Part shown: in pieces, positions 37,865 to 42,450 of the stretch
How positions within the stretch are numbered: the first letter of the stretch is position 1
Layout: each line of letters begins with the position of its first letter
Source of the DNA: Sulfobacillus thermotolerans
GTDB lineage: Bacteria; Bacillota; Sulfobacillia; Sulfobacillales; Sulfobacillaceae
DNA: 64,000 bases
NCBI GenBank assembly: GCA_002951815.1
Contig: CP019454.1
Location: 372,001 to 436,000, forward strand
Direction: 5' to 3'
The notes under the pieces: generated by a model
What the model was told of the DNA's origin: nothing
Databases searched by the model: none
What the model saw: only the letters and a program-made list of their open reading frames with translations
Made by a program: the position numbers and the translations under genes

Positions 37865-40330
37865 ATGTTCGGACAATTTACCGAAAAGGCGCGGCGTGTG
37901 GTGATTCATGCCCAAGATGAAGCGCGCCGTATGGGACATAATTTTGTAGGCACGGAGCATCTGCTGTTGGGATTGATTCGCGAAACGAACTCATTGCCCG
38001 CGAAAGTACTCCAGTCAATCGGGTTGGACCTGGAAACAGTAAGAGCCGAAGTGTTGAAGGCAACCGGGCGAGGACCTGCTATTGGCCCCAATGAGGAGGT
38101 CACATTTACACCCCGGGCGAAAAAAGTCGTTTTGGAATTGGCTGGGCAGGAAGCAAGAGCTCTCAATCAAAATTACATTGGGCCTGAACACTTGCTCCTC
38201 GGATTGATTCGTGAAGGTGAGGGTGTCGCGGCACAAGTATTGTTGGCAGCGGGCGCCGATTTAAACAAAGTCCGTCACCAGCTCTTGCACAATGCGGCGG
38301 GAGGACAACAAGCGGCTAGCAATGCGTCGGAGCAGGCGCCATCGGTGAATACGCCGACCTTGGACCTCTATGGACGGGACTTAACTCAGATGGCACGAGA
38401 GAACAAGTTGGATCCGGTCATTGGCCGAGACACGGAGGCTGAGCGCGTCATTCAAATTTTGAGTCGGCGCACGAAGAATAATCCGGTGTTAATTGGAGAG
38501 CCGGGTGTAGGCAAGACGGCTGTGGTTGAAGGCCTGGCAGAGCGCATTGTGGAAAACAAGGTGCCAGAAATTCTCAAGGACCGCCGTGTGGTGGCGTTGG
38601 ACTTAGGGGCCATGCTGGCGGGCTCTAAATACCGTGGAGAGTTTGAAGATCGTCTAAAACGCGCCATGAACGAAATTCGTGAAGCGAAAAATGTCATTTT
38701 ATTCATCGACGAGATGCACACGATTGTGGGCGCTGGCGCTGCGGAAGGAGCTATTGATGCGGCCAATATTTTAAAGCCAGCCTTGGCGCGGGGTGAGTTG
38801 CAAGCCATTGGAGCGACCACCTTGGACGAATATCGCAAATATGTTGAGCGGGATCCGGCCTTGGAACGACGGTTTCAGCCGATTATGGTGGAGGAGCCTT
38901 CCGCAGAAGAGACGCTTCAGATTTTAAAGGGCTTGCGTGATCGCTACGAGGCCCACCACCGGGTCAACATTATTGACGAAGCCCTGGAGGCGGCGGTGCG
39001 CCTCTCTGACCGTTATGTTTCGGACCGGTTTCTTCCCGACAAAGCGATCGACTTGATTGATGAAGCCGCGTCGCGGGTGCGTTTGAAGAGCTATGTCGCT
39101 CCGCCTGACTTAAAGGACCTGGCCGAAAAATTGGAAGACATTCGCAAGGAAAAAGAAGCGGCCGTCCAAGCGCAAGAATTTGAGAAAGCGGCGCAAATGC
39201 GGGACGAAGAGCAGAAGCTGCGTGAGGAGCTAGAACGTGAGACTCAGGAATGGCACGCCCGCCAAGGGAAGGAAGCCATCAATGTCACGCCCGAAGATAT
39301 TGCGCACATTGTCTCGTCGTGGACAGGAATTCCCGTCGAAAAACTTAAAGGCGAGGAATCGGAACGTCTCTTGAAGCTGGAGGATGAACTACATGCCCGG
39401 GTGGTGGGGCAGCAAGAGGCCGTTGAAGCCGTAAGCCGTGCCATACGCCGGGCCCGGGCTGGGTTGAAAAATCCGCGCCGGCCGATAGGATCATTTCTCT
39501 TCTTGGGGCCCACAGGAGTTGGGAAATCTGAGCTGGCCAAGGCCTTGGCGGCGTCACTGTTTGGCGATGAAGAGGCCATGGTGACGATTGATATGTCCGA
39601 GTATATGGAACGCCATGCCGTGTCACGACTCATGGGCGCTCCGCCCGGATATGTGGGATATGAAGAAGGCGGTCAATTGACAGAAGCGGTGAGACGCCAT
39701 CCGTATTCTGTGGTTTTGCTTGATGAAATTGAAAAGGCGCATCCTGAGGTTTTTAATATTCTTCTGCAAGTGTTGGAAGAAGGACGGCTGACAGAAGCTA
39801 AAGGGCGCACGGTGGACTTTCGCAATACCGTCATCATTATGACCTCAAATGTGGGAGCTGACCTGATTAAACGTCAAAACACCATTGGGTTTCGTCGGGA
39901 GTCGGATGAAGGGCATTACCGCGAGATGAAAGATCGGCTGATGGATGAAGTGAAGCACACATTTCGTCCCGAGTTTATCAATCGTGTGGATGAGATTATT
40001 GTGTTCCATGAGCTTTCTGGCGATCAACTGGCACAAATTGTGGGGATTATGCTGAAAGAGGTTGAAGACCGCCTGCAACAAAACGGCTATACGTTGGCGA
40101 TTACTGATGCGGCGAAGCTCGTTATTGCTAAAGATGGCTATGATCCCGTGTTTGGTGCTCGTCCCTTGCGCCGTGCAATTCAACGGCTGGTCGAAGACCC
40201 CTTGGCAGAGGCGATTCTGGCGGCGAAGTTCCCGGAAGGGGCGCATATTTTGGTGGATGCGGAAGATGGGAAACTAACGTTTACCGAAATGACGACCAGT
40301 GACACTGTGCTTAATGACCAGCGGGGGTGA
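37865..40330 (+). CDS. clpC: ATP-dependent Clp protease ATPase subunit ClpC
   Basis: An AAA+ unfoldase that feeds substrates to ClpP. The 821-residue protein has two N-domain repeats ([19 protein letters not shown] and [18 protein letters not shown]), a first ATPase with Walker [10 protein letters not shown] and Walker B LFIDEMH, a coiled-coil/UVR middle region ([20 protein letters not shown]), a second ATPase with GPTGVGKSE, and the GYVGYEEGG pore loop. It ends in the D2-small domain ([20 protein letters not shown]). The stop overlaps the GTG of radA. Confidence 0.97.
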
Positions 40331-42450
40331 GGACAATCCGAGAACAGACGCGGTATGTGTGCCAGGTTTGTGCCACCACCAGTGTTCGCTGGATGGGCCG
40401 CTGTCCGGGGTGTGGTGGGTATAATACCATGGAGCAGGAAATCGTCCGGAAGGAGCCGACTCCGGCTCCTTCCGCTTCCGGTTCGGGAGCCACGCCGGTG
40501 CCGATTACCACGATTGAAGCGGAAAGTACTGTACGGATATCGACCGGGATTGCCGAGGTTGACAGGGTTTTGGGTGGGGGAATGGTGCCTAACGGATATT
40601 TTCTGTTGGGAGGCGATCCTGGGATAGGCAAGTCGACGCTATTGCTCCAGATCGCGGCGTTTGTTAGCAGGCAAGGACCGGTGCTCTATATTACCGCTGA
40701 AGAGTCTGCCGCCCAAACCCGAATTCGTGCACAGCGACTTGGTGCCTTACCTGACCAACTTTATGTTATGGCCGAAGGTAACATTCGCATCATTGAATCG
40801 GTTATCACCTCCCGTTCATGGCAACTCGTGGTAGTCGATTCGTTGCAGACCGTCTATGACGCGGAGATCGAAAGCGCACCGGGGAGTGTGGGTCAGGTTC
40901 GCGGCATTGCCGCTCGTTTGATGAAAGTGGCTAAAACGATGTGTCCAATTTTTTTGGTTGGGCATGTGAACAAAGAAGGGTCAATGCGGCCCGCAGCTTA
41001 GGGTAACTTAGGCTGAGGCACTGGGCTATATGCATGAAACACTGGGAGTGGCGCGCGAGAGCCCGCCGCAGCGGTCAACGTGCAGGAAACGGAGACAACT
41101 TTGGATCCTCAGAGACAATATGCCCAGCTCCTAGCGTTATGGGCTCAAGGTAATAAGGTTTTGCGTCGGCAATTCAATGGACAGGCACACACCCGTTCCT
41201 TAGAGGCTTGGCAGCTTGGACAAAGCATCGCGAGTCATGGCATAGGTGTATTGCCCATGCAATTGAATCCCGTGATCTTCTTTATCGCAGATGACCCAGA
41301 TGACGTGAATGCGTGGTGTGTTCTCGTGGACGAGACGCTCAACAGCCAACGTGAGTGGTTTCGGCGACCAATCTGGCTCTCTTGGGATAATCGCTGGCAG
41401 TACAACGGGACATGGACCCTGCCTGCGGCGTTCATGGCGCGTTTGGGAAAACGTCAATGGCAAACCCTACGCCAGTATGTGGAAGGCCATGCAGATTCTG
41501 TTGTCTGGCACACCCATGGGGACGTGCAAGACGTCTTGGCGGGACTTCGACACGAACCTCGCCGGATTGGACAAGCGCCCGCCGCCTTATGGCTTCCGCT
41601 GGCTCAATTATGGCGTCACCGTGGGTCATGGAGGCAGGTTGCGTTAGATCCGACGGACCATCTGCCGTGGCTGGAGTATGATGCGAACACCGACAAATTC
41701 CTATGGCCCCGAACGAAGGATGAAGACAGTGTCCAATAAGCGCTAGCAGGGCCCCGGGTGGTAGAGCATTTAGTCGACGTCGTGCTCATGTTTGAGGGGG
41801 ACCGACAAAATATCTTCCGCGTTCTGCGGGGCGTTAAAAATCGTTTTGGTTCGACCAGTGAGTTGGGACTTTTTGCGATGGAAGGGGAGGGATTGGTTGG
41901 GGTTGAGGACCCGTCCCGTATGCTTTTAGAAGAGCGACCTGTCGATCGGCCGGGATCAGTCGTTGTCGCAGCGTTTGAAGGCACGCGTCCCTTAATGGTG
42001 GAGGTTCAGGCGTTGTTGGTGCGGAGCTTTGGGACCCCTAGGCGCGTGGTCTCAGGCATGGATCCACACCGCGTGGCATTAGTCTTGGCGGTCATTGAAC
42101 GGCATTTACGCTTGCGGATTTCCGAAATGGATGCGTATTTCAAAGTCACCGGCGGCGTATCCATTGATGATCCCGCGATGGATTTAGGCATTTTAGCGGC
42201 CGCAGTATCCTCATTGACCGGCCAAGCGATCGGGCCTGAGTGGGCGGTCTGTGGGGAAGTCGGGTTAACAGGTGAAATTCGACGCGTTCCCCGCTTAGAG
42301 GAACGTGTCAAAGAAGCGGGGGGGCTCGGGTTTACCCGTTTAGTGGTGCCCGGCACGGTGTCATCGGTTCAGCCCGGGATATTAACATTTGCCGCGACGC
42401 GCATAGGCGACGTGATTGCGCGGCTCGGATTAGAAAGTCCGGAGGACTGA
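40327..42450 (+). CDS. radA: DNA repair protein RadA, split by a group I intron (join 40327-40981, 41741-42450)
   Basis: RadA is a RecA-like helicase acting on recombination branch structures. Exon 1 has the zinc finger (CQVC ... CPGC), Walker [11 protein letters not shown] and Walker [10 protein letters not shown]. Exon 2 has [22 protein letters not shown], the RadA-specific [13 protein letters not shown] and the C-terminal Lon-like domain. Joining at the splice sites given makes KEG-S-LAGPRV and a 454-residue protein, the normal family length, with 1365 nt exactly in frame. Without splicing, translation stops at 41001 after 224 residues, losing the KNRFG motif. The GTG start overlaps the clpC stop; disA follows. 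Confidence 0.9.
40982..41740 (+). ncRNA. group I self-splicing intron in radA (759 nt)
   Basis: The 5' exon ends in T and the intron ends in G. The guide GCGGCCC (40986-40992) pairs with exon GGGT (P1, with U.G at the splice site) and exon CGC (P10). P3: GGGC-T-ATAT (41023-41031) with ATATGCCC (41118-41125). P4: GCATG (41032-41036) with CGTGC (41079-41083). P6: AGGA/TCCT, with P6a CGGAG/CTTTG. P7: GAGACA (41112-41117, bulged A) with TGTCC (41730-41734). P8: TCCT-AG-CGTT (41129-41138) with AACG-A-AGGA (41712-41720). The segment AAGACAGTGTCC (41723-41734) resembles the conserved J8/7-P7 consensus AAGATATAGTCC. Element order is exactly that of the group I core. Confidence 0.9.
41101..41739 (+). 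CDS. unrecognised intron-internal protein, tryptophan-rich
   Basis: One frame stays open from inside P4 to a TAA ending one base before the 3' splice site, so the protein overlaps P8' and P7'. Start is uncertain: TTG 41101 (GGAG 6 nt upstream), TTG 41161 or ATG 41257. Most of it lies in the P8 loop, a common site for intron-encoded homing endonucleases. I see no LAGLIDADG, GIY-YIG, HNH or His-Cys motif. The sequence is unusually rich in Trp (about 17 in 219 codons of open frame) and Gln. It could be a divergent endonuclease or maturase, or not a protein at all. Confidence 0.5.
   Translation: MDPQRQYAQLLALWAQGNKVLRRQFNGQAHTRSLEAWQLGQSIASHGIGVLPMQLNPVIFFIADDPDDVNAWCVLVDETLNSQREWFRRPIWLSWDNRWQYNGTWTLPAAFMARLGKRQWQTLRQYVEGHADSVVWHTHGDVQDVLAGLRHEPRRIGQAPAALWLPLAQLWRHRGSWRQVALDPTDHLPWLEYDANTDKFLWPRTKDEDSVQ

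Follow-up and report, generated by a model that had tools for sequence, protein, structure and literature searches.

What interrupts the repair gene radA of Sulfobacillus thermotolerans, and can a single RadA still be made from it? We analysed a stretch of 64,000 nt (hereafter the window; positions 372,001 to 436,000 of the forward strand of contig CP019454.1, assembly GCA_002951815.1) in which radA is split by a 759-nt insert, and which an earlier, sequence-only reading had taken to hold a complete group I intron. The explanation that we consider very probably correct is that a group I intron lies within a Ser codon of radA, is spliced from the transcript, carries a protein gene in the loop of its P8 helix and is inherited within the order of its host.

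The insert and the exon junction

Removal of 40982-41740 from between the exons (40327-40981 and 41741-42450) leaves a single open RadA frame of 454 aa containing KEG-S-LAGPR, so the exons join in frame as the sequence-only reading had claimed. Its borders also stand, as do the U at the 5' exon end and the G at the intron end (T40981 and G41740 in the sequence), but its placement of KEG has to be shifted: the GGG of KEG occupies 40978-40980, and T40981, the last base of exon 1, is the first base of a Ser codon split T|CG. Both exons are under purifying selection (five pairs compared), and a search of the genome with the spliced RadA (E ≤ 1e-20) returned the two halves only and no intact second radA, the copy whose presence that reading had set against its own proposal. 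Exon 1 ends in GGGT in 31 of 31 carriers; the Gly codon at the site is GGG in three of 14 intronless radA genes (Gly itself is present in 12), a weak contrast, the carriers being related to one another.

Ribosomes reading on from exon 1 would meet an in-frame stop upstream of the ribozyme core. This stop falls 18 nt into the intron in 27 of 31 radA introns and at nt 33 in the other four, uses TAA, TAG and TGA, and is present also in the three radA introns of another class described below (family f103); early in-frame stops are viewed in section 11 of the review PMC3984707 as a way for an intron to fold. The conserved stop, together with a 230-aa ORF of its own in exon 2, would also suit a split RadA, in which the two exons give separate polypeptides, the second starting at GTG 41758, and the insert between them serves as a structured spacer that is never spliced. 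We think this very improbable and reject it, as the junction is conserved to the base, the guide sequence of the insert (IGS) is complementary to both exons, the guanosine-site helix P7 covaries and precise intronless alleles exist; GTG 41758 moreover lies downstream of AGPR.

Predicted structure of the intron

The guide proposed by the sequence-only reading does pair with both exons, and P3, P4, P6/P6a, P7 with its bulged A and P8 follow in the expected order, to which P2 and P5/P5a can now be added (Table 1). The description of the intron as complete holds for these core helices but not for P9: in 31 of 31 radA introns only 3-6 nt, and no P9 helix, separate P7' from the terminal G. Since P9 is called essential, and its lack very unusual, in the passage of PMC3873408 concerned, we class the intron as a variant; a hairpin at the P9 position is present in the related introns found in G041 and G319 (by eye).

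Table 1. Coordinates of the radA intron, its parts and its flanking exons in the window, and of related introns in other genomes
Feature	Location	Strand	Remarks
radA exon 1	40327..40981	+	GTG start; ends ...AAA GAA GGG T; purifying selection
Group I intron	40982..41740	+	759 nt; ends in G41740
P1	40978..40992	+	GGGU 40978-40981 / GCCC 40989-40992; U.G at 5' splice site
IGS GCGGCCC	40986..40992	+	GCG 40986-40988 / CGC 41741-41743 = P10
P2 hairpin	40994..41015	+	GNAA tetraloop GUAA 41003-41006
In-frame TAG stop for exon 1	40999..41001	+	upstream of ribozyme core
P3 5' strand CUGGGC	41021..41026	+	pairs GCCCAG 41122-41127; all cells paired, double changes
P4 5' strand UGCAUG	41031..41036	+	pairs CGUGCA 41079-41084; all cells paired, double changes
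P5	41041..41075	+	41041-41044 / 41072-41075
P5a extension	41050-41067	+	GNRA-type loop
P6	41085..41108	+	GG 41085-41086 / CC 41107-41108
P6a	41090-41094 / 41099-41103	+	
Shine-Dalgarno-like GGAG	41091-41094	+	opposite P6a strand from TTG 41101-41103; assigned by eye
Intron ORF	41101..41739	+	212 aa from TTG 41101 (219 aa from GTG 41080); TAA adjoins terminal G
P7 5' strand G[A]GACA	41112..41117	+	A41113 bulged; pairs UGUCC 41730-41734; 100% of cells paired
P3 3' strand GCCCAG	41122..41127	+	
P8 5' strand UCCU	41129..41132	+	pairs AGGA 41717-41720; ORF fills P8 loop
J8/7 region UGAAGACA, P7' UGUCC 41730-41734, 5-nt tail, G41740	41721..41740	+	without P9
radA exon 2	41741..42450	+	first base C41741; purifying selection
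cheY intron L095	G214 C21:26437		compact; in-frame TAA downstream of junction in this cheY
cheY intron L096	G252 C15:157982		compact; cheY copy intact
L125	G319 C48:5219-5423		intron in bacterial Cpn60/TCP-1 chaperonin gene; P9-like hairpin
L088	G041 C44:112214-112356		compact intron-like RNA; R1 E 4.5e-9

P1 with the U.G pair at the 5' splice site recurs in 31 of 31 radA introns, and P10 is paired in 98.9% of cells (31 full introns), G057 keeping two of its three pairs; in the f103 radA introns both sides of P10 differ (by eye). The guide thus tracks the exon, with AAUCG facing CGAUU in the radA of G252 where the window type has GCG facing CGC of exon 2.

We examined the helices in several alignments: A1 (31 rows, without G020 and G040, which are cut by a contig end), A2 (without the near copies G004 and G021) and A4, which joins 13 of the 31 A1 rows with the G252 and G214 introns and two cheY introns into 17 diverse cores (G473, whose 3' end reads N, was excluded). 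In 29 5' domains the hand-made P1-P6a plus P3 was paired in 94.6% of cells (shuffled mean 82.4, 0/500 as good), both sides had changed in 26 of 46 pairs (0/500 shuffles equal), and pairing fell to 28.5-47.0% when the partner was slid by 1-3 columns. In the 31 full introns P3 and P7 were paired in all cells and P8 in 80.6%, and shuffles matched the alignment in 0/500 cases on four measures and in 2/500 on the number of pair types; the outer P8 pairs are broken in 6-20 of 31 sequences per pair, 14 of 29 sequences do not form the first P5 pair, and P1 is invariant within radA and hence shows no covariation there. The 17 cores, with f103 and cheY added, were 89.9% paired with both-side changes in 36 of 58 pairs (0/500 shuffles), in a MAFFT alignment with some helix columns out of register (e.g. 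77/115, unpaired in 9 of 17). P7, whose strands lie ~600 nt apart across the ORF in radA, was paired in 17 of 17 cores, with A-U replaced by C-G in five, double changes in two of its pairs, and the variants GACA/UGUC, GGCC/GGCC, GACC/GGUC and GGCC/GGUC.

The 160-nt 5' part of the intron in the window folds alone to P1-P6 (z = -3.34; 0/200 shuffles as good), and RNAalifold recovered P1-P6 with no structure given. On the joined cores RNAalifold favours a local 3'-end hairpin that uses the P7' strand; in our judgement P7 fits the changes better than this hairpin, having no broken cell.

In the proposed mechanism, the radA transcript would fold into the group I core, with the IGS holding both exons via P1 and P10. 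An external guanosine bound in P7 would attack after U40981, and the end of exon 1 would then attack after G41740 and so restore the T|CG codon. Translation of exon 1 would halt at 40999, upstream of the core, leaving it free to fold.

Recognition by Rfam and link to accepted group I introns

The sequence-only reading had named a match to the Rfam model RF00028 as a check, and here its expectation failed: the window stays below the gathering score, with no match at E ≤ 10 in 40800-41900 and none at E 0.001 anywhere in the genome (the same genome search was positive in four of 14 control genomes). Measured by that reading's own check, this result counts against a group I intron, and the argument was therefore built on relatives. 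The relatives L048, L054, L088, L092-L096 and L125 likewise gave no match at E ≤ 1, nor did L088, L095 and L096 at E ≤ 10. As the ORF-free cheY introns are among those missed at E 10, the presence of an ORF does not explain the failure. The relevant passage of Nawrocki et al. 2018 (PMC6125680) thinks it unlikely that any single alignment such as RF00028 covers group I diversity; in view of this statement, of the missed cheY relatives, of the covariation and of the link set out below, the miss is not decisive; RF00028 helps to detect group I introns but does not define them.

That link comes from a second model, R2, whose training set consisted solely of radA and cheY introns and which matches 12 of 398 genomes in a sample of the phylum: three of f1, three of f103, G319 and five others. 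Of these five, RF00028 (E ≤ 0.1) recognises G358, G270 and G197 and misses G523 and G299. The R2 E-values of the three are 2.5e-6, 0.0029 and 0.0077, the last two near the threshold, and their introns (L119, L120, L123) score 4.8e-16 to 1.6e-18 with RF00028; they are distant R2 relatives which, unlike the radA intron, are ordinary and within reach of RF00028. The R2 matches L114, L121 and L122 have no Rfam match at E ≤ 0.1, and L124 and the second G000 match represent, by position, the 3' ends of radA introns already counted. Covariation and the link to RF00028-recognised introns together support the claim of a group I intron in radA, and by its predicted fold we assign the insert to that class. 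G358 carries an ordinary group I intron (L126, C3:227252-227554; RF00028) in an apparent flagellin gene (by eye).

Distribution of the intron

The insert DNA matches 32 of 61 genomes, its own included, and the intron ORF the same number. All 32 copies lie in radA, flanked by both exons in 30 and by one exon in G020 and G040 (contig end), and radA is split at the same site in G057, a genome from a different family of the class. A model of the 5' domain (R1, E ≤ 0.01) found 34 of 154 genomes of the class, 33 of them the radA carriers and one (G041) with its match in another gene; in the 398-genome phylum sample it gave six matches, three belonging to f103, a new family in another class, where three of four members carry the intron in radA at the same site. 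In total, 36 genomes have the intron in radA, 33 of its own class and three of another. The site is uninterrupted in 14 genomes whose radA was read there, of which G036 and G037 belong to the same order. No relatives were found in viral contigs, plasmids or phages; the only contig-database match, L022 of Natrialba asiatica (33% over 89 residues), lacks radA exons and is put down to chance.

The lack of an Rfam match and the in-frame stops might suggest a decaying remnant, or else a pseudogene with an assembly artefact in it. We regard this as next to impossible, and it is refuted by the relatives: the insert is in the radA of 36 genomes, and selection acts on its structure and, in the pairs compared, on both exons and on the ORF.

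Eight members of the order (G002, G015, G022, G023, G028, G030, G032 and G041) gave no radA at E ≤ 1e-20, which may mean loss or missing contigs; five of the eight are at least 95% complete. In G055 the locus L057 (C67:2357-3108) matches RadA in two adjoining pieces (residues 7-159 and 319-423) and is a shortened or broken radA that does not hold this intron.

The intron-encoded protein

Across the 34 intron ORFs aligned (A3), whose other members are 21-55% identical to that of the window, the codon at the position of TTG 41101 is TTG in 28 and GTG in one (G011), and neither G035 nor G057 has a start codon at this position; the three f103 ORFs have ATG one codon upstream, preceded by AAGGAGG or GGAGG, and a GGAG-like sequence precedes the start in many ORFs, not all. 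In close pairs the differences are concentrated at the third position of codons (e.g. 13/8/37 and 19/10/71), a pattern of purifying selection on the ORF in the pairs compared. The ORFs of f103 and G057 match a profile built from those of the order at E 4.1e-13 to 3.5e-11 (nominal 10,000 sequences).

No homing endonuclease family was found at E ≤ 0.1 in the 34 members (Pfam, PHROGs, NCBIfam), and neither a profile nor conserved catalytic residues of the LAGLIDADG, GIY-YIG, HNH, His-Cys or PD-(D/E)XK types; there was no PDB match at E ≤ 1, and AlphaFold2 of the ORF alone reached a mean pLDDT of 39.5, and the model was set aside. Matches in a single member each (1/34), to DUF4253 (0.015), rve (0.04), Acetyltransf_3 (0.045), phrog_7860 (0.029), RHS_core (0.0011) and NF009467 (0.0018), we take as chance. 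The invariant columns are D2, P3, R5, A8, L10, L11, K19, R23 and R172, and the sole acidic one, D2, lies in sequence that overlaps the core. By these searches the ORF defines a new protein family with no known relatives, whose product is most likely RNA-binding, maturase-like rather than an active endonuclease, and hence a candidate splicing factor.

Several observations would fit instead an ordinary mobile group I intron, with an ORF that encodes a homing endonuclease of undescribed fold and with repeated homing into the conserved site as the cause of its presence across the order: the ORF sits in a peripheral loop like those of mobile introns, probably homologous ORFs occur in introns of two genes (radA and Cpn60/TCP-1), the spread across separate classes is patchy, and one ORF has the weak rve (integrase core) match noted above. 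We consider this rather unlikely, given the absence of endonuclease families and PDB matches, the position of D2, and the agreement between the ORF and RadA trees within the order.

The ribosome-binding site and TTG of the ORF lie in opposite strands of P6a, and the P7 and P3' strands supply its first codons, so that translation and core folding should compete. It is possible, and we propose it tentatively, that the radA and cheY introns form a new structural subgroup without P9, domesticated in Sulfobacillus-like bacteria, with a nuclease-free maturase and with splicing, hence recombination repair, tuned by the state of translation because translating the ORF and folding the core exclude each other.

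Inheritance

For 29 members of the order the ORF tree shares 21 of 26 splits with the RadA tree, against at most 2 in 1000 random comparisons; the tree of the short RNA domain agrees less well, with only 14 of 24 splits in common (27 members). G019, G020 and G040 were left out of the trees compared. This agreement indicates that the intron has been inherited with radA within the order, and the order's ancestor probably already had both the intron and its protein, which were passed on with the gene. The intronless G036 and G037 adjoin intron carriers on the RadA tree (support 0.986), which makes intron loss the simpler reading for them; on that tree G057 and f103 are placed away from the order, so the occurrence of the intron beyond it calls for a few transfers or else for many losses.

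The group I intron of cyanobacterial tRNA-Leu(UAA) is old and vertically inherited. It shares long inheritance with the radA intron, but has a tRNA host and no ORF, where the radA intron has a protein-gene host and a conserved ORF.

Related introns in other genes

The two cheY introns (174 nt in G214, 162 nt in G252) have neither an ORF nor P9, their P8 is closed by a short loop, and each has its own P1 of 7-8 bp and P10 of 8 bp (pairs counted by eye). The junction restores FMR-MMIKD, and the spliced G252 protein matches Response_reg at E 1.1e-32. To our knowledge these would be among the smallest group I introns, and we found no report of a cheY group I intron in the open-licence full-text literature.

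In G319 the host gene (PF00118, E 3.5e-37 for the spliced start) contains an intron with an ORF that matches the profile of 34 ORFs at E 5.4e-5, that of the 31 own-class ORFs at 0.0011 and that of the three f103 ORFs at 0.046, each profile being compared with 2000 shuffles of that ORF only (best shuffle 0.17, full profile). This ORF is probably homologous to that of the radA intron, which suggests that the pair of intron and ORF has probably moved between genes, yet within its own order it appears to have been inherited. The gene that holds the G041 copy is weakly similar to the phage tail fibre family phrog_772 (E 0.008), and splice sites with a U.G pair could not be placed in it.

Comparison with known systems

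The review PMC3984707 gives recA, nrdE/nrdF and flagellin genes as bacterial protein-gene hosts of group I introns, and radA and cheY are absent from the hosts named in its section 11. The radA intron resembles these introns in its conserved host, its P1/P10 with an IGS, its P3-P8 and its early stop, and differs from them in the RF00028 miss, the lack of P9, an ORF outside the endonuclease families and inheritance within an order. As the sequence-only reading had supposed, no described radA group I intron emerged from the open-licence full-text literature, and the main text of PMC6803676, on Sulfobacillus thermotolerans Kr1, mentions neither intron nor radA. New here are the lack of P9, the RF00028 miss, the protein and the inheritance.

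Archaeal RadA is a recombinase, a different protein from bacterial RadA. Its intein, reported in a passage of PMC8987985 to splice in response to single-stranded DNA, is likewise an intervening element in a 'RadA', but it splices as protein and is unrelated. IStrons (PMC4227781) also combine a group I intron with a protein gene; the radA intron ORF matches no transposase family besides the one-member rve match.

In the review's account (PMC3984707), bacterial group I introns have a limited distribution and are currently assumed to be benign selfish elements. The intron described here occurs in 33 genomes of one class, always at the same base of a repair gene, and follows the gene's tree (29 order members). 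RF00028 missed every copy searched, which makes an undercount of introns of this kind probable, and their hosts may pass for broken genes. Elsewhere in the window (10851-32440), three rRNA operons lie within 22 kb, all on the + strand and with nearly equal model scores.
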